The notes under the pieces were generated by a model. The model had not been told where the DNA came from. It saw only the letters and a list, made by a program, of their open reading frames with translations, and did no database searches. From Patescibacteria group bacterium (GTDB lineage Bacteria; Patescibacteriota; Patescibacteriia; 2-12-FULL-60-25): 33,638 nt of DNA. Position numbers and translations under genes: made by a program. Where the stretch lies: contig JARGGJ010000016.1 of NCBI GenBank assembly GCA_029210915.1, positions 1-33,638 on the forward strand, written 5' to 3'. This document shows, piece after piece, positions 9,122-33,385 of the stretch. Every line of letters starts with the position of its first letter. Position 1 is the first letter of the stretch.

Positions 9122-11822
9122 ACAATGATTTCATTCGTTCTTTTAGAGCTTGCTGTTTCTTTTTTGCCTCATCGAGCTTATCTTTCATACTGTTTACGAC
9201 ATGTTCCGGAGCTTTGGATGTAAAATCGGCATTTTCGAGTTTCGCTTCGGTCGATTTTATGTAAGGCGCAAGCTCTTCGATTTCTTTTTGTAGTTTAATC
9301 TTTTCCGCTTCGACATCTATTGCGCCGGCGAGGTTGAGGCCAATAGTCATAGTACCCGATACATCGGTTGCCCAGCCTTCGGCGATCGTTTCCTCGATAT
9401 TGATAGATTCGGCGCGAGTGAGAGATTTGATAACTTCGTGATTTTCCTCAATCAGCTGGTGCTGATATGTATCGGCGACTATTGAGTACTCTACGAATTT
9501 TGCGGCTTCAATTCCCTGCTCTGCGCGTAGGCGGCGGAGATCGGTAATCAAACTTCGTAATGTTTCAAAACTATTTACTTCTTGGTCCATGGTCCTCGGT
9601 ACATCGTCCTGGCTCTGGGGCCAGGGGGCAACTATGAGTTGGTCTTGGTTGAATTGGCTCCAGATGAACTCGGTGACAAAAGGCATGAATGGGTGCCAGA
9701 GTTTTAGAATCGTGGGCAATATGTGCATTAGGATTTCTTGTTTGCCTTTTTCAACTTTAGCGATTTCCAAATACCAGTCTGCTAAATCGTTCCAAGTGAA
9801 ATCGCGGAGCTCTTCACCGGCTGGAGAGAATTGATAAGTTTCCAACTTCTTTGTAACAGATGCTGTAACTTCTTCGAGGCGCGATAAGATCCATTTATCA
9901 GATAAGGTTCGAATTTCGTATTTCGAACTACGAACTTCGCCTTCGGAAGAATCGTTGTTCGTGGTTCGTCGAGCTGAGCTCGATTCTTGTTTGATATTCG
10001 TCAAAATGAAGCGTGAGATGTTCCAGAGTTTGTTGGTGAAGTTGCGTCCGTTTTCAATTTTTTCTGTGTAATAACGAGAATCATTTCCTGCTGATATGCC
10101 AAATAGTAAACTGATTCTAAGAGCATCCGAGCCATACTCATCGACAACTTCGATTGGATCGATGCCATTGCCAGATGATTTGGAGAATTTTTTACCCTCT
10201 TTATCGCGCAAGATTCCATGAATGTAAGCGTCTTTAAAAGGGATATCGTTAAAGAGATATGTACTCATTAACACCATACGCATCAGCCAGAGATACAAAA
10301 TTTCGTAACCCATTTGCATCCATTGTGTTGGATGAAAAGTATTGAGATCGAGTGTTTCGTTTGGCCAGCCCAGAGTAGAAAATGTCCAGGAACCGGATGA
10401 GAACCATGTGTCTAAAGTATCCGGATCTTGCTCCCAGCCTTCGCCTTCCGGAGCTGTATTGCCAACGTGAATCTCCTCGCCTTTGTACCAAACCGGGATG
10501 CGATGACCCCACCAGATTTGGCGAGATAGGCACCAATCGCGAAGATTTTCGACACGATCCAAATAGAGTTTGGTAAAACGATCCGGGGTGATTGTAACTA
10601 GTTTTTCTTTATCACCATCCAAACCGGTGGTAACCGCATCTCGCATTAAATCGCGTAAACTTTTTCCACGGCCCGGAATTTCTTTGTTCATATCGAGCCA
10701 CCACTGAGTTTTGGGAATTGCTTCAATCACATCGCCATAGCGGTCGGAAGTGCCGACGCTTTGATCGATTTCTTCTTCTTTGATTAGCAAATCGTTGTCT
10801 TTGAGATATTGAACAAATTTTTCCCGAGCTTCCACTGCGGTTAATCCTTGATAAGCCTCGCCTGCTTCGGCAGTCATTCTTCCATCTTCGCCGATAACCG
10901 GGATGATATCGATTGGGTCACCCTTGGCTTTTTGTTTTTCGTACATCGCAAAATCCACTGCGCTGTGAGCGGGCGTAACTCCGAGGGCGCCGGTACCAAA
11001 TTCCGGATCAACTTCTTCGTCGGCTATGACTTTGATGTTTAGGGGTTTGGATGCGCCAACATCTACAGAGAAGGTTTGGCCGATAAATTGTTTGTAGCGG
11101 TCATCGTTTGGATGAACTGCAACGGCAGTATCACCGAGTTTTGTTTCGGGGCGGGTTGTGGCGATGACGATTGGGAAATCTTTGCTGTATTTAAAAGTAT
11201 AAAATTTAGCCTTACGATCTACATACTCGATCTCATCGTCTGAACAAGTTGATTGACCTTTTACTGTCCAATTTACAACCCTGTATCCGCGATAGATGAG
11301 GCCATCATTGTACATTCTGGTGAAGAGCTCGTTTACAGCCGTATTGCGCTCTTCATCAAATGTATAAGCCAAACGCGACCAATCGCAACTGGTACCGATT
11401 TTACGGATTTGATTTATCATTGTTGCTTTAGAACCCTCTGCGAATTCGCGGATTTTCTCCAAAAGCTTTTCACGACCTAATTCTTCACGAGGATATTCCA
11501 TGCCATCGGCGATAAGCATTTTCTCCACTTTAGCCTGGGTGGCAATAGCAGCATGATCTGTTCCCGGTACAATGACGGCTTTTTTACCGCGCATGCGCTC
11601 GAATCGAACCATGGTATCCATAAGTGCGTTTTCCAGAGTATGCCCAAGGTGAAGGACACCGGTTACATTTGGTGGCGGCATGGAAATGCAGAACGGAGCT
11701 CCTTGCTGATTGCGCTCGGGGAGTTTATCGGGATTAAAAAAACCGTTCTCTTCCCAGCGCTTGTAAATATAGGCTTCTACGTCTTTTGAATCGTAGGCTT
11801 TTGGTAGATCTTTGAAATCCAT
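9120..11822 (-). CDS. valS: valyl-tRNA synthetase with repeat-derived inserts
   Basis: This class I synthetase charges tRNA-Val and edits mischarged tRNA. Over 900 residues it has HLGH (58-61), the editing-domain motif TTRPETKLGDTA (222-233), the KMSKS-type motif KFSKSSGN (545-552), the anticodon-binding helical domain and a C-terminal coiled coil (IKLQKEIEEL). Two stretches match repeats found elsewhere. Residues 612-640, between KLWNISRFILTNI and LSDKWILSRLEE, are Ser/Arg/Glu-rich and lie in a CGAGCTGAGCTCG-type repeat. Residues 734-746 (PQSQDDVPRTMDQ) lie in a copy of the palindrome arm at 23034-23064. The frame is intact. The ATG has no clear ribosome site, and its leader is an AT-rich repeat. 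Confidence 0.97.
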   Translation of the reverse strand: MDFKDLPKAYDSKDVEAYIYKRWEENGFFNPDKLPERNQQGAPFCISMPPPNVTGVLHLGHTLENALMDTMVRFERMRGKKAVIVPGTDHAAIATQAKVEKMLIADGMEYPREELGREKLLEKIREFAEGSKATMINQIRKIGTSCDWSRLAYTFDEERNTAVNELFTRMYNDGLIYRGYRVVNWTVKGQSTCSDDEIEYVDRKAKFYTFKYSKDFPIVIATTRPETKLGDTAVAVHPNDDRYKQFIGQTFSVDVGASKPLNIKVIADEEVDPEFGTGALGVTPAHSAVDFAMYEKQKAKGDPIDIIPVIGEDGRMTAEAGEAYQGLTAVEAREKFVQYLKDNDLLIKEEEIDQSVGTSDRYGDVIEAIPKTQWWLDMNKEIPGRGKSLRDLMRDAVTTGLDGDKEKLVTITPDRFTKLYLDRVENLRDWCLSRQIWWGHRIPVWYKGEEIHVGNTAPEGEGWEQDPDTLDTWFSSGSWTFSTLGWPNETLDLNTFHPTQWMQMGYEILYLWLMRMVLMSTYLFNDIPFKDAYIHGILRDKEGKKFSKSSGNGIDPIEVVDEYGSDALRISLLFGISAGNDSRYYTEKIENGRNFTNKLWNISRFILTNIKQESSSARRTTNNDSSEGEVRSSKYEIRTLSDKWILSRLEEVTASVTKKLETYQFSPAGEELRDFTWNDLADWYLEIAKVEKGKQEILMHILPTILKLWHPFMPFVTEFIWSQFNQDQLIVAPWPQSQDDVPRTMDQEVNSFETLRSLITDLRRLRAEQGIEAAKFVEYSIVADTYQHQLIEENHEVIKSLTRAESINIEETIAEGWATDVSGTMTIGLNLAGAIDVEAEKIKLQKEIEELAPYIKSTEAKLENADFTSKAPEHVVNSMKDKLDEAKKKQQALKERMKSL
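9585..9622. repeat. in-frame TCCATGGTCCT repeat arm inside valS
   Basis: 31 bases from 9585 match the reverse complement of the right arm of the intergenic palindrome at 22994-23064 at 28 positions (differences: C for A, C for G, T for C). The reading frame of valS continues through it. Confidence 0.7.
9905..9990. repeat. in-frame repeat inside valS
   Basis: The stretch is made of TTCGAA/TACGAA-type short inverted repeats plus CGTCGAGCTGAGCTCGAT. The latter 18 bases occur identically at 25555-25572, upstream of rsmA. It encodes an extra Ser/Arg-rich linker between the catalytic and anticodon domains. Confidence 0.65.
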
Positions 11823-11825
11823 AAA

Positions 11826-11926
11826 TCAACAAATATTTACCAAATATTGCCCAAGATACAAATCTCACCAAACATTGTTTGCTTAGTATTTGTAAAAACT
11901 TGGGAAAGATTTGATTATGTTTATTT
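11826..11926. repeat. CAAATATTTACCAA inverted-repeat element, copy 1
   Basis: AT-rich arms (CAAATATTTACCAAATATTG and its mirror ending in GTAAAAACTTGGGAAAG) form an imperfect inverted repeat directly before the valS start. Sister elements lie at 13980-14080 and 16046-16160. A valS promoter could lie inside, with TTTGTA and TAAATA spaced 17 apart, but this is weak. Confidence 0.65.
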
Positions 11927-13941: not shown

Positions 13942-13979
13942 ATCCCATTCCCTAGTTCACCCTCATGCACTAAGGTTTA

Positions 13980-14080
13980 CACAAATATAACCAAATATTT
14001 ACCAAGTTAATCCAAATATATCCCAAACTCTATAAAGTTAAGTTTGATAATATTTGTATCTTGGTCAATATTTGGGAAAA
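13980..14080. repeat. CAAATATTTACCAA element, copy 2
   Basis: The left arm (CAAATATTTACCAAG) and right arm (ATTTGTATCTTGGTCAATAT) are inverted copies of each other. It forms the leader of the DHH-like gene, ending 13 bases before its ATG. Confidence 0.65.
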
Positions 14081-14092
14081 GTTTAGTTTAGT

Positions 14093-15998: not shown

Positions 15999-16196
15999 TA
16001 CCTTGATTACCTTGATTAACGGGATTTGCAGGATTGAACAGAATTGTAAATAAATATTACCAAATTTTTACCAAGAATTTCCAAATATTTACCAAACTAA
16101 CAGAACCGTGTTTGAGTTTATTTGTATCTTGGGCGATATTTGGTAAATATTTGCAAAGGTTACAATCCTGCTAATCGGTTTCTAATCCTGTAAATC
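15999..16196. repeat. nested inverted-repeat elements (CCTTGATT type around CAAATATTTACCAA copy 3)
   Basis: The outer arms ACCTTGATTAACGG...GATTTGCAGGATTG and CAATCCTGCTAATCGG...AATCAAGGT are inverted. Inside, 16046-16160 holds the third ACCAAATATTTACC/GGTAAATATTTG element. No gene is visible from 15998 to 16350; a short inverted pair GATGGTAAGTGAG / CTCGCCTACCATC also lies at 16209-16274. Confidence 0.65.
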
Positions 16197-17184: not shown

Positions 17185-18378
17185 CTATTCCACCTCTGTA
17201 TTACGTGATTTTGGTGTGTAAACATCCAAATATTTTTCGATCATCAAGCCCTCGTGCCAGAGTTGGGGCGTGATGGATGTGATACCAAATACTTCCAGGC
17301 GTGTGGCTATGCCTGCGATCATGGCGAGGGCGTTGGCAAAGCGGATATAGTTTAATACATTTAGTGTATTGGCTTTGGTGCGGATATCGATTTCTTGACC
17401 GTGTTTGATAAGAAGTGATGCTTTGCGAATGAGATCGAAATTTAATTCCGCGGGCGATAGTGCATCCATTAAGAAAGGTTCCCAAACATTGGTTTCGTTT
17501 TTAACAAACATTACATTCCCTCCGCCCGCCATATCGATAATCTCATTTGTGTCCGCGGAGTATTTCATTGCGCGTTTAATATAGCTTGCCAATGCGTGGC
17601 GGAAGCCTTCGTCTTCGTTGGCGATTTTTATTATTTTCTTTAGAGATGGATAGATGTAGGAAATTATTTTTTCGCGGGTTTCTTTTGCGACAGGGCCTAT
17701 GGATTGTGCTGATGCAAGCAAGCGATGGCCCTCGGAATAATATTCGAGTTTGATTGTGCGGTTTAATTCCGAATAGCTGGAGTAGATATCGATTCTATCT
17801 TCTTTTTTAGGGCGAGATATTTTGTGTTGCAGAGTACAAAGAACCGGCATGGTTTTGGGAACAACGAGATTTTTGGGGATTTCTATATTGCGGTCTTTTA
17901 GAACAGCAACCACAACTTTTTTTGTCAGCGGGATTTCTTTAACACGAACAATCTCTATCGGGACTTGACCGGGCAAGAAATAGGATTGCAGACGTTTGAT
18001 GCGATTACGATGATCATCGGCTTTGCGAGAGATATCAGCGATAGCTTTTGCAATTACTTCTTCGCCGCGCGCTTGAGCATAAAGAACAGGCAAACTTTCG
18101 ATAAAGTCGACTTTGAGTATGTAGTTGGGAAAGCGAATATCTTCAAAAACAATATGTTCCCCTCCTTTACCAATAAGATGCAAGATGTGAGGGAGCACGC
18201 GGCAATTATCCGATGCCATCATTACAAGCTTGTGGCCAAACTCACTTAAAGCAGCCTCCAATTCTTTTGGAGATGGACGCAGGGACCGAGAATCCCCCAA
18301 TCCAACGCTTTGCGTTGGATATCCCCCTTTGACAAGGGGGCGTATTGTTCGTTTAGTTTTTGTGGCCGATGCTGGCAT
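17185..18378 (-). CDS. kinase-fold-like hypothetical protein with N-terminal in-frame repeat
   Basis: The protein has 397 residues. LIGKGGEHIVF (68-78) followed by ILKVD (87-91) resembles the glycine loop and beta-3 lysine of protein-kinase-like folds. IIDMAGGGNVMFV (280-292) and WEPFLMDAL (299-307) sit where the catalytic-loop Asn and the metal Asp would fall (N288, D305). No HRD motif is present. A kinase or pseudokinase is inferred, not shown. Residues 13-33 (RPLVKGG..TQSVGLGDSR) are a translated palindromic repeat also found in RsmA and the ligase. TATAAT ends six bases before the ATG with no ribosome site, implying a leaderless mRNA. Confidence 0.55.
   Translation of the reverse strand: MPASATKTKRTIRPLVKGGYPTQSVGLGDSRSLRPSPKELEAALSEFGHKLVMMASDNCRVLPHILHLIGKGGEHIVFEDIRFPNYILKVDFIESLPVLYAQARGEEVIAKAIADISRKADDHRNRIKRLQSYFLPGQVPIEIVRVKEIPLTKKVVVAVLKDRNIEIPKNLVVPKTMPVLCTLQHKISRPKKEDRIDIYSSYSELNRTIKLEYYSEGHRLLASAQSIGPVAKETREKIISYIYPSLKKIIKIANEDEGFRHALASYIKRAMKYSADTNEIIDMAGGGNVMFVKNETNVWEPFLMDALSPAELNFDLIRKASLLIKHGQEIDIRTKANTLNVLNYIRFANALAMIAGIATRLEVFGITSITPQLWHEGLMIEKYLDVYTPKSRNTEVE
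18283..18341. repeat. in-frame ATCCCCC..GACAAGGGGGCG palindromic element, copy 1
   Basis: It holds two hairpins, ATCCAACGC-TTT-GCGTTGGAT and CCCCCTT/AAGGGGG. Copies with altered but still pairing arms lie in rsmA (25219-25271) and the ligase gene (31264-31320). Confidence 0.85.
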
Positions 18379-22993: not shown

Positions 22994-23064
22994 AGGTCCT
23001 AGGTACATGGTCCTGGGTCCTGGCTCTGGGTTCGGAGCCAGGACCATGTACCTAGGACCATGGA
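22994..23064. repeat. GGTCCTAGGTACATGGTCC palindromic element
   Basis: A 25-base arm is repeated in inverse orientation around a short centre; the left arm has an internal GTCCTGG duplication. One arm recurs inside valS at 9585-9622. Confidence 0.8.
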
Positions 23065-23134
23065 CGATTCGGTGGGGTTGACAATTGGGCAATTTTATGC
23101 TATATTAAGCGGTTCCTTACAAATGAGTTTATAA

Positions 23135-24685: not shown

Positions 24686-25524
24686 CATTTCGCCAACTCT
24701 ACCCATTCTTTGGCTGTAAGCTCTTCGGCGCGGGCTTTGGGGTTGATGTGTAGCTTTGTTGTTATTTCTTCCCATGCCTCGGTTTTGATGCCAAGGTTGC
24801 GGCCTAAGAGCTTGCGCGGGTGGGAGAATCCAAGTTTGGCTACCTTCATGACTGCCTCGGGGTCTATCCCCCATTTTTTTAGGCGATCTTTTGCAGACAG
24901 TGGAACCATTTTGATTATCGCGGAATCGACTTTTGGCTCCGGATAAAACGATGTAGGTGAAACGCGATGGATGATTTTGATCTCGGCACAAGCCAGATGC
25001 GACATTAAAGCCAAGAGCGACATTTTCTCTTTTTTATCTTCTGCGAGGATTCTCTCCGCTACTTCTTTTTGAATGAGAGCGATAAGAAGTGTTGGTGGGT
25101 TTTTAGCGTAGAGTGCCTTGCGGAGAGCTAAGGATGTTATTGAGTATGGGAGGTTGGAGACGAACTTCCAGGGTTTTGCGCCCATTAGGTCGTCGAAGTC
25201 GGATTTGGCTGCGTCGGCGCAAATCCCCCGAATCGCGCTTTGCGTGATTATCCCCCTTTGACGAGGGGGTCGCTGTTGCGAGAGTCGATCGGCTAAGACT
25301 TTATCTTTTTCGATAACTGTCAATTGTGCGCCGGATTCTAAGAGGGCTTCTGTGAGGACACCGAGGCCGGGGCCGATTTCTAATACTCTATCCCCTTTTT
25401 TGATTTCTGATGTAGTTACGATCTTCCCGAGAATGTTTTTATCAATTAAAAAATTCTGGCCCAAGCCTTTGTTTGGGCGTCGTCCAAGATCTTTCAAAAT
25501 AGAGATTATCTCGTTTTTGTTCAT
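24670..25524 (-). CDS. rsmA: 16S rRNA dimethyladenosine transferase RsmA/KsgA with in-frame repeat
   Basis: This S-adenosylmethionine-dependent enzyme dimethylates two adjacent adenosines near the 3' end of 16S rRNA. It shows GQNFLIDKNIL (22-32), the cofactor motif VLEIGPGLG (47-55), acidic IEKD (71-74), and the catalytic FVSNLPYSIT (121-130). The 284-residue length is normal to slightly long. Residues 85-101 (RPPRQRGIITQSAIRGI) come from the same palindromic repeat as in the kinase-like and ligase genes. It sits between the second and third strands, where the family has a shorter loop. The C-terminal LNLD and stop come from another repeat. No ribosome site is seen. It lies downstream of prfB and tsaC in the same direction. 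Confidence 0.96.
   Translation of the reverse strand: MNKNEIISILKDLGRRPNKGLGQNFLIDKNILGKIVTTSEIKKGDRVLEIGPGLGVLTEALLESGAQLTVIEKDKVLADRLSQQRPPRQRGIITQSAIRGICADAAKSDFDDLMGAKPWKFVSNLPYSITSLALRKALYAKNPPTLLIALIQKEVAERILAEDKKEKMSLLALMSHLACAEIKIIHRVSPTSFYPEPKVDSAIIKMVPLSAKDRLKKWGIDPEAVMKVAKLGFSHPRKLLGRNLGIKTEAWEEITTKLHINPKARAEELTAKEWVELAKCLNLD
25219..25271. repeat. in-frame ATCCCCC..GACGAGGGGGTCG palindromic element, copy 2
   Basis: Hairpin AATCGCGC-TTT-GCGTGATT (one G-U) plus CCCCCTT..GAGGGGG. Relative to the other copies it has one extra C and one fewer G, which cancel, so the frame at ACGCAAAGC is the same in all three genes. Confidence 0.85.
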
Positions 25525-30966: not shown

Positions 30967-32469
30967 TCAGGCGTCAAGAATATCGGCTTTGTTTTTATTT
31001 AGCCAAAAAATGATAATGAAAGCTGTGAATATTGTTAATAATTGACCGCTCCAAAGCGTGTAGAGATAATGGTCGAAAAGAGAGATTATGAGCCATGAAA
31101 ATAATAACGCCACCGAGAGACTGCGGAGGTTTGAATCTCCACTACGCCAATGAATGAGGATCTGCCTAAGCAAGAAAAGCAGAAAGCCAAAGATGATGAG
31201 TGCGCCGGCTGTGCCAAAGTTGGCGAGAATTAGGACGAAGACGTTATGAGGCGGTTCGAGGGGGCGGAAATCCCCCGATTTAACGCCTTGCGTTAAATCC
31301 CCCCCTTTGACGAGGGGGCGTTCTATGGCTGATAAAGCTGGGAGTTCGGAGTTGGGGCCGGTGCCGAAGATGGGATAGGCTTGGAAGACTTTGATGCCAT
31401 CCGTGAGGCTATCGCTTCTAGCTGAAGTTGATTGTATTTCGAGGCGAGCAGGTTCCGGAGCAAGTCCGACTCGTGTGCTGAATAGTTCCCAATTAAGGTA
31501 GGCGAAGAAGGAAAAAGTGGCTATGATGAAAAATAAGACACCTAAAGATCTTAAGGAAATTATCCCCCTCCCCCCTCCATGCGTCGGGGTACCCCACCTT
31601 GCATCAATCTTATTTTTTATTTGATCAAAGGGGAGCTTTACCAGTACAAGGGACAGACTGACCGCGAGAGCTATCCAGGCAGAGCGGGAAAAGCTGTAGA
31701 AGAGAGCCATGGCGAAAAGCGGGATGGTCGTAATAAGAAAAATCCCCCTCCCCCCTCCTTGTGTCGGGGTACTCCCCCTTGCATCTATCTTATTCTTTAA
31801 TTGATCAAAGGGGACATTTGTTGAGATCCATGTGGCTATTAGGATTCCGAACGTCATGAAACCGCCAAGGATGTTGGGGTGCGGGAAGCCTCCGTAGGCG
31901 CGGAGAAAACGCAGATCGCCGGCTTCCACGACAGAGACACCGAGGTTTTTTGGATCTTGTGTAGCTACGCCAATCCATGACCAGCCGTGGACGTATTGCA
32001 GTGAAACTTGAACGAAGGCGAGGATTGCGTGCGGTATGAGGGAGATTACGAACCAGGATAGAATTGATTTAAGTGAGATATTTGCGCGCAGCAGTGTTAT
32101 GAAAAAAGCTGTAAGTAAAAATATTTGAATCCACCACATTCCCGAGGCTCGTATATCTACAGGAGTTGAAACTATGTTAATTGCTCCGAGCAGTACTACG
32201 AACCAGAAAAGATTGATGCGCAGTTTTTTTGAGAGATTGGTTTTGGGAACAAAAAAACTTAAGATGATGGTGATGATGAGTGGGATCCAAGAAATGTAGA
32301 AACTTAATCTACCTTGCTCGAAGGGCCATCCGGCTAACGTTGAATTGCTGAACCAACGAGTTTGTAACGGCAAAAGGAGAATAGTGAGGCGCCAAATAAA
32401 ACCGAAGATTGTATCTTGTATCTTGAATCTTGTATCTTGCGGTTTATTATGGCTGGATATTGAGGTCAT
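30967..32469 (-). CDS. O-antigen ligase/polymerase-like membrane protein with in-frame repeats
   Basis: This is a protein of about 500 residues with roughly ten membrane segments. The Wzy/WaaL-type signature is present: AYGGFPHPNILGGFM, YSFSRSAWIALAV, and the large outer loop with FGTGPNSE and PPHNVFVLILANFG. Such proteins join or polymerise lipid-linked glycans at the outer membrane-leaflet face. Three blocks are translated repeats: two NKIDAR..TPT.GGGRG blocks between membrane segments (31742-31816 and 31562-31636) and RPLVKGG.LTQGV in the outer loop (31264-31320). The N-terminal PQDTRFKIQDT also comes from a CAAGATACAAG tract. The start is uncertain: ATG at 32469 or GTG at 32493, both inside the previous gene. 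Confidence 0.85.
   Translation of the reverse strand: MTSISSHNKPQDTRFKIQDTIFGFIWRLTILLLPLQTRWFSNSTLAGWPFEQGRLSFYISWIPLIITIILSFFVPKTNLSKKLRINLFWFVVLLGAINIVSTPVDIRASGMWWIQIFLLTAFFITLLRANISLKSILSWFVISLIPHAILAFVQVSLQYVHGWSWIGVATQDPKNLGVSVVEAGDLRFLRAYGGFPHPNILGGFMTFGILIATWISTNVPFDQLKNKIDARGSTPTQGGGRGIFLITTIPLFAMALFYSFSRSAWIALAVSLSLVLVKLPFDQIKNKIDARWGTPTHGGGRGIISLRSLGVLFFIIATFSFFAYLNWELFSTRVGLAPEPARLEIQSTSARSDSLTDGIKVFQAYPIFGTGPNSELPALSAIERPLVKGGDLTQGVKSGDFRPLEPPHNVFVLILANFGTAGALIIFGFLLFLLRQILIHWRSGDSNLRSLSVALLFSWLIISLFDHYLYTLWSGQLLTIFTAFIIIFWLNKNKADILDA
31264..31320. repeat. in-frame ATCCCCC..GACGAGGGGGCG palindromic element, copy 3
   Basis: The variable hairpin reads GATTTAACGC-CTT-GCGTTAAATC, differing from copies 1 and 2 but fully paired. 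The constant hairpin is CCCCCTTTGACGAGGGGG. Confidence 0.87.
31562..31636. repeat. NKIDAR-type in-frame element, copy B
   Basis: 75 bases starting ATCCCCCTCCCCCCTCC and ending TTTGATCAAAGGGGAG match copy A with about eight differences. Encodes NKIDARWGTPTHGGGRG. Confidence 0.85.
31742..31816. repeat. NKIDAR-type in-frame element, copy A
   Basis: 75 bases, exactly 180 bases from copy B and in the same orientation and frame. Encodes NKIDARGSTPTQGGGRG. Confidence 0.85.
32404..32442. repeat. CAAGATACAAGATTCAAGATAC tract in the ligase 5' coding region
   Basis: Tandem variants of TTGTATCTTG/TTGAATCTTG on the plus strand; read in frame as PQDTRFKIQDT in the ligase. Confidence 0.6.
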
Positions 32470-33385
32470 GGCAGAGGTTGTAGTATTTATCACGGTAAAG
32501 TTTGCGGTTGTCTGTTACATGAAATTTTAGCACATTATCGTTAATAATGACGCGTGTATCTTGATTGGCGATTTCGGCGAGTACCTTTGGAAAACGGACA
32601 CTTTGGATTTGGCGCAGCCATCTCTCTATCAATAGTGTTGGTTGCTCGCCGGTATCTTTTTTGATTGTGACTGTGCCGGGAACCGGGCTTTTATCGAGCG
32701 CTGTCCATTTTTGCGCATTGGGATGCCTGCGACGTAATTCGAGATTTTCCTGCCAAAGAAGCGACAAGATTCCATCGTCGGTGAGTGGAAGCAGAGAGAG
32801 AAACCAGTAACGCATGTACGGATCATCCATTTCAAGCGAGAGGTTGCTTAGATTCAGAGCATCTTCGGTTACAAAAAAAGACAAGCAGACCGGGTCGACT
32901 TTTCGTTCTCCGGGGCGGGCGTTTAGAATCTTAAATGGAAGTGTTGCAAAAAAGCGTGTACGCCAAATGGTACCCGCGTGGCAAATTATAAAAAAATCCA
33001 AATCGCCGTTATCGCGAGCTTGGCCAAGAGCGGTGGTATTGCAAAGGCAGATGGAACGGACCCATGGCAAGAGTTTTAAATACTTGATGGCACGACGGAC
33101 GTTTCTTAGTTTGCGAGGGAAATAAATTTCGTTATCTCTACCCTCTTCAATTATCTGCGAATGAGATTTGAGGGTTATGCGGTTAGCGTCTTCGATAAGA
33201 ATGTTTTTTGATATCAACTCATCAACGATTGTGTTCATTTCCGCAAACAATTCTTTTGAATCGAGCTTGATTTCTTGGCCGGCGGAATCCAAAAACAAAA
33301 ACAACTGTAAGCGCGTGGGTGCATAATTCCAAGCAGTTTGGAATGCCAGGGTTCTTAGGATCGCGCTTTTTAGTTGTTCTTGCAT
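32447..33385 (-). CDS. nucleotidyltransferase-like protein
   Basis: The protein has 312 residues. TTALGQARDNGDLDFFIICHAG (about 117-138, in outline) resembles the nucleotidyltransferase core GSxA.G...SDID with the metal-binding aspartates as DLD. A helical domain with MRYWFLSLLPLTDD follows. The first 90 residues look like a winged-helix segment (LQLFLFLDSAG, ELISKNILIED). The substrate is unknown. It overlaps the ligase gene, so the two are probably co-translated and may act in one glycan pathway. No ribosome site is seen. Confidence 0.65.
   Translation of the reverse strand: MQEQLKSAILRTLAFQTAWNYAPTRLQLFLFLDSAGQEIKLDSKELFAEMNTIVDELISKNILIEDANRITLKSHSQIIEEGRDNEIYFPRKLRNVRRAIKYLKLLPWVRSICLCNTTALGQARDNGDLDFFIICHAGTIWRTRFFATLPFKILNARPGERKVDPVCLSFFVTEDALNLSNLSLEMDDPYMRYWFLSLLPLTDDGILSLLWQENLELRRRHPNAQKWTALDKSPVPGTVTIKKDTGEQPTLLIERWLRQIQSVRFPKVLAEIANQDTRVIINDNVLKFHVTDNRKLYRDKYYNLCHDLNIQP

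Follow-up and report, generated by a model that had tools for sequence, protein, structure and literature searches.

A palindromic in-frame repeat present twice in loops of a Wzy_C family membrane protein of a Patescibacteria group bacterium

Short palindromic repeats that lie in frame within unrelated protein genes, where they add a segment and leave the protein intact, are known from Rickettsia as Rickettsia palindromic elements (RPEs; Ogata 2000, as given in PMC10969869). Intragenic MITEs and ERIC-type units, which are small and non-autonomous, can be fused to ORFs, that of a membrane protein among them (Delihas, PMC2759123). REP and REPIN sequences are short hairpin repeats with a genome-wide distribution, which are mostly extragenic and are characterized by GTAG/CGTC tags and RAYT transposases (PMC3116915, PMC3733652). 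In Corynebacterium diphtheriae, the very small repeat Cod-2 is found in various CDSs and encodes frame-dependent peptides (PMC2267715). For RPE-like elements in genomes of the Candidate Phyla Radiation/Patescibacteria, no relevant paper was found in the open literature.

The window analyzed here, i.e., the whole stretch of 33,638 nt from a Patescibacteria group bacterium, contains a gene at 30967..32493 (-) that encodes a 508-aa membrane protein of the Wzy_C (O-antigen-ligase) family and carries all inserts. The protein matches PF04932 with an E-value of 2.1e-13 and 50.7 bits, above the curated cut-off of 31.7 in the Pfam search; a protein scan of genome contigs gave no confirmed match to a relative. 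Across 16 aligned members, the residues R270, R341, R350, R359 and H416 are invariant. Since every invariant residue is retained, the ligase is probably functional, and by comparison with WaaL these arginine and histidine residues would be catalytic. As no relatives were found in the PDB by sequence or profile search, the topology was based on hydropathy and charge. In the family average, loops 1 and 2 are net-positive (K + R 2.6 and 4.0 vs. D + E 0.6 and 1.1) and the large loop with R341-H416 is charge-neutral, which places loops 1 and 2 on the cytoplasmic side and the large loop presumably in the periplasm. In the window, the ligase and groES genes are adjacent and separate; in one relative (L017, 1426-3219) the ligase and the downstream groES share one open frame of 598 aa.

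A repeat search revealed two copies of an element at 31562-31639 and 31742-31819, with a length of 78 nt, an identity of 88% and a start-to-start distance of 180 nt. In the whole-genome BLAST search, the core of this repeat comprised 73 nt with 90% identity (E = 4.5e-23). Both copies are located in one frame of the ORF, with the translations PFDQLKNKIDARGSTPTQGGGRGI and PFDQIKNKIDARWGTPTHGGGRGI. By repeat search, BLAST and alignment, copy A (31742..31814 (-), about aa 227-251, VPFDQLKNKIDARGSTPTQGGGRGI) was assigned to loop 1, which exceeds that of most relatives by about 17-23 aa, and copy B (31562..31634 (-), about aa 287-311, LPFDQIKNKIDARWGTPTHGGGRGI) to loop 2. The copies lie on either side of a transmembrane helix pair at 31635..31741 (-), which is present once according to the alignment to relatives and includes the invariant SFSR arginine R270. 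The preliminary description had reported two in-frame copies of 75 bases exactly 180 bases apart, flanking a helix pair on the same side of the membrane; the copies and their spacing were confirmed, and the net-positive charge of both loops points to a common, cytoplasmic side. In both copies, stop codons are absent from two frames only, coding frame 1 and one antisense frame. The peptide NKIDAR..TPT.GGGRG is kept in both, and about three of the seven core differences are synonymous. The element ends are inverted (TCCCC...GGGGA) and the predicted hairpins are of moderate stability, with z-values of -1.35 and -2.82. No obvious direct (target-site) duplication was detected in the flank sequences of either copy.

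For comparison, 29 homologs belonging to the genus and the family were aligned to the ligase. The two blocks are absent from all 29, in which the loops at these positions are short and basic (e.g., AKRQAER). NKIDAR..TPT.GGGRG was found in no relative, neither in the alignment nor by peptide search, and the 24-aa peptide gave matches in relatives only with an E-value of 0.2 or more. The stretch between the blocks, IFLITTIPLFAMALFYSFSRSAWIALAVSLSLVLVK, aligns to a single helix pair in every relative covering it, with no sign of an additional pair. At an offset of 180, the DNA identity is 80-93% within the element and drops at once to 26% and 24% in its two flanks of 90 nt, compared to 28 ± 5% for arbitrary offsets. 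The element alone was doubled, and the helices were not; the spacing of 180 nt results from the conserved length of the helix pair plus one insert.

In the 1.455-Mb, 98%-complete genome, BLAST detected two full-length copies of the element, both in the ligase gene, and no further match of comparable length. The copy number rests on this whole-genome search and on 423 kb of own-genome sequence, within which the motifs CCCCTTTGAT and GGGGGGAGGGGG are restricted to copies A and B. Searches of 381 genomes of its class and 41 of its order gave no match to the element DNA, and none was found in viral contigs. The genomic copy count that the preliminary description had called for thus yields full-length copies in the ligase gene only, and the finding by which it would have been refuted, conserved blocks in ligases of genomes without the DNA repeat, was not made: the blocks are absent from the relatives and from these class and order genomes. 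A search of genome contigs with the DNA pattern of the element gave six matches; two of them (L080 and L082) look like chance matches within GC-rich coding DNA, and the others are from Klenkia, Sphaerotilus and Blastococcus.

Like RPEs, the twin element is a palindromic in-frame insert that lengthens an intact protein (PMC10969869) and is absent from orthologs. It differs from them in its host and sequence, in being shorter (75 nt, compared to about 100-150 nt) and in being confined to one gene. As copies in unrelated genes are lacking, it is described here as RPE-like in its working and not as a member of the RPEs. The fusion of a small repeat to an ORF is shared with the MITE and ERIC-type units, but the twin element has no clear target-site duplication. 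Since no copy was found outside the ligase gene, the case for its mobility comes from other elements, which occur in the same loops of congeners and elsewhere in the genome.

In the congeners G002 and G005, loop 1 contains the hairpin DNA CCCCTCTTAAATTAAGAGGGGG. In G001, loop 1 contains two hairpins and loop 2 a TCATTGCGAGCGAAG...GCAATGACAG repeat, and a more distant member of the family (L040) carries a different palindrome in loop 2. The inserts of G001 recur at about 34 other places of its own genome (about 30 for the loop-2 insert and about four for the loop-1 insert); a search with the helices between them gave no matches in that genome. Several more copies of the G005 loop-2 insert were likewise found in its own genome. 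Loop 2 of G005 contains a clean in-frame hairpin of 39 nt that is absent from the G002 ortholog of about 89% identity (alignment columns 811-849, L020 vs. L015), and the pair also differs by a 21-nt insert in loop 2. Across the whole ligase alignment, lineage-specific inserts are located in loops, and the ORFs contain 16 perfect-stem hairpins compared to 8.1 in synonymous-codon shuffles, i.e., about twice as many. Because the same loops of sister species hold different repeat DNA, loops 1 and 2 appear to tolerate small selfish repeats.

A third insert of the ligase gene is a copy of the two-hairpin element E1 at 31269..31318 (-), identified by BLAST copies and a covariance model. It lies in the large, presumably periplasmic loop, ends about seven residues before the invariant H416, and matches the E1 model with 62.7 bits (E = 4.5e-18), being one of its seed sequences. 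E1 consists of a CCCCCTYGTCAAAGGGGG hairpin, a second hairpin with covarying arms and a terminal GGGGGATT. Among 15 copies, 99% of the cells are paired, and 37 double-change cells were counted compared to 12.6 after shuffling. BLAST located E1 at 17 places in its own genome, and the covariance model gave 54 matches there (E ≤ 0.01). Eight congeners have 2-26 matches each, and other genera have few. Of the 17 BLAST copies, ten fall within open frames exceeding 150 codons, and several reading frames are represented. The host genes include ksgA, an hflX-like GTPase gene, a dinB-like polymerase gene and the N-terminal edge of ruvC; having copies in several unrelated genes, E1 behaves like RPEs. 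Within the window, further in-frame copies are found in the gene of an unknown protein (18291-18340) and in ksgA (25222-25269). One radical-SAM/DUF559 gene (contig C5 of genome G000, about 34954-36286; L091, L097 and L102) harbors three copies, each in open frame, with both orientations represented. In addition, E1 is clustered, as 16 of 49 places have a neighbor within 1 kb compared to 3.2 expected.

Like Cod-2, E1 gives different peptides in different frames; the hosts are unrelated, as are the sequences as far as known. With REP and REPIN sequences, the elements described here share the form of short dispersed hairpins, whereas they are C5/G5-ended and often genic. Longer, intergenic E1 variants (L135-L141; G000 C47, C33, C1 and C45) have an A/T-rich second hairpin that resembles a bidirectional terminator, and several intergenic second hairpins are of the form AAAAAAGACCCATGAGTCTTTTTT. 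Other repeats of the window comprise three related, apparently intergenic blocks at 11820-11887, 13978-14084 and 16037-16153, which are about 70-84% alike and occur in direct and inverted orientation, as well as a 26-nt stem with 96% complementarity at 22995-23065, which is composed of GGTCCTAGGTACATGGTCC-type repeats.

Taken with the alignment, these elements make it probable that the blocks derive from an RPE-like palindromic insert in insertion-tolerant loops of the ligase, of which a second copy arose by copying of the element alone, probably locally, and which is translated passively. A hairpin-forming insert would have entered one loop-coding stretch in frame, and its translation would be a passive, glycine-rich extension of the loop. 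The second copy would then have been made from the element alone over a short distance, by local transposition or template switching. Short-distance copying is slightly favored, because a third full-length copy is missing and the two copies share one 1.5-kb gene, for which the chance is about 0.001; the arrival of the two copies independently of each other is a serious possibility for this step. Selection would retain only in-frame, stop-free events in solvent-exposed loops, and such selection would explain the common frame and side of the copies as well as a spacing that equals the helix pair plus one insert. The added peptide as such is probably close to neutral.

A distinct explanation assumes that a mobile element inserted twice independently, the loops being good targets; its other copies would have been lost, or it would have come from an unsampled genome. 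Loops 1 and 2 of the congeners are repeatedly occupied by different elements, and insertion from a lost source is conceivable because E1 has entered one gene several times, as in the radical-SAM gene. Yet the 98%-complete genome has no full-length copies beyond these two, both in one gene, where a second hit has the chance given above, and they share orientation and frame. Taken together, this explanation is rather unlikely.

It is improbable that selection keeps the peptide in duplicate for a function of its own, e.g., binding at the cytoplasmic face. In favor of such a role, both copies have remained open with NKIDAR..TPT.GGGRG preserved and a share of synonymous differences, but the motif is absent from all relatives, the same loops of sister species carry unrelated peptides, and no match to the peptide was found elsewhere. 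Even less probable is a role of the hairpins as RNA or DNA, be it in translation pausing during membrane insertion, in mRNA stability or in an off-switch by deletion of the SFSR helix pair. Both copies are able to fold, and if they recombined with each other, exactly 60 codons would be lost in frame, R270 among them; against this stand the weak folding, the lack of anything similar that is conserved and the irreversibility of such a deletion. A segmental duplication of loop and helices within the gene, which the preliminary description had put forward and to which the regular 180-nt spacing and the common frame might point, is refuted by the alignment, because the ligase has one helix pair, the homolog of the only pair in the relatives, and identity in the flanks is at chance level.

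When the twin element was compared with the E1 model R1, the region 31741-31769 gave an E-value of 0.07 and the region 31561-31589 one of 2.5, and the alignment covers only the CCCC..GGGG stem and the terminal GGGGGATT. The order of parts is E1-like, with a CCCCTTTG...CAAGGGGG hairpin, a second CCCC..GGGG stem and a GGGGGAT end. This architecture suggests that the twin element may belong to the E1 family, with weak model matches. The corresponding modular reading consists of a fixed C5/G5 hairpin, an interchangeable second hairpin and the GGGGGATT end. Tentatively, the genus may host modular, locally copying palindromic elements that lengthen proteins in frame, the twin element being a divergent member copied very locally and the ligase loops a landing site that recurs across species.

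In-frame palindromic repeats were thought to be remarkable in Rickettsia, and a bacterial genus with small genomes shows the same habit. Several unrelated repeats in the same enzyme loops across species, together with one clean pair of occupied and empty sites in orthologs of about 89% identity, provide a natural series for testing how proteins are lengthened by selfish repeats and for identifying the enzyme responsible for their movement.
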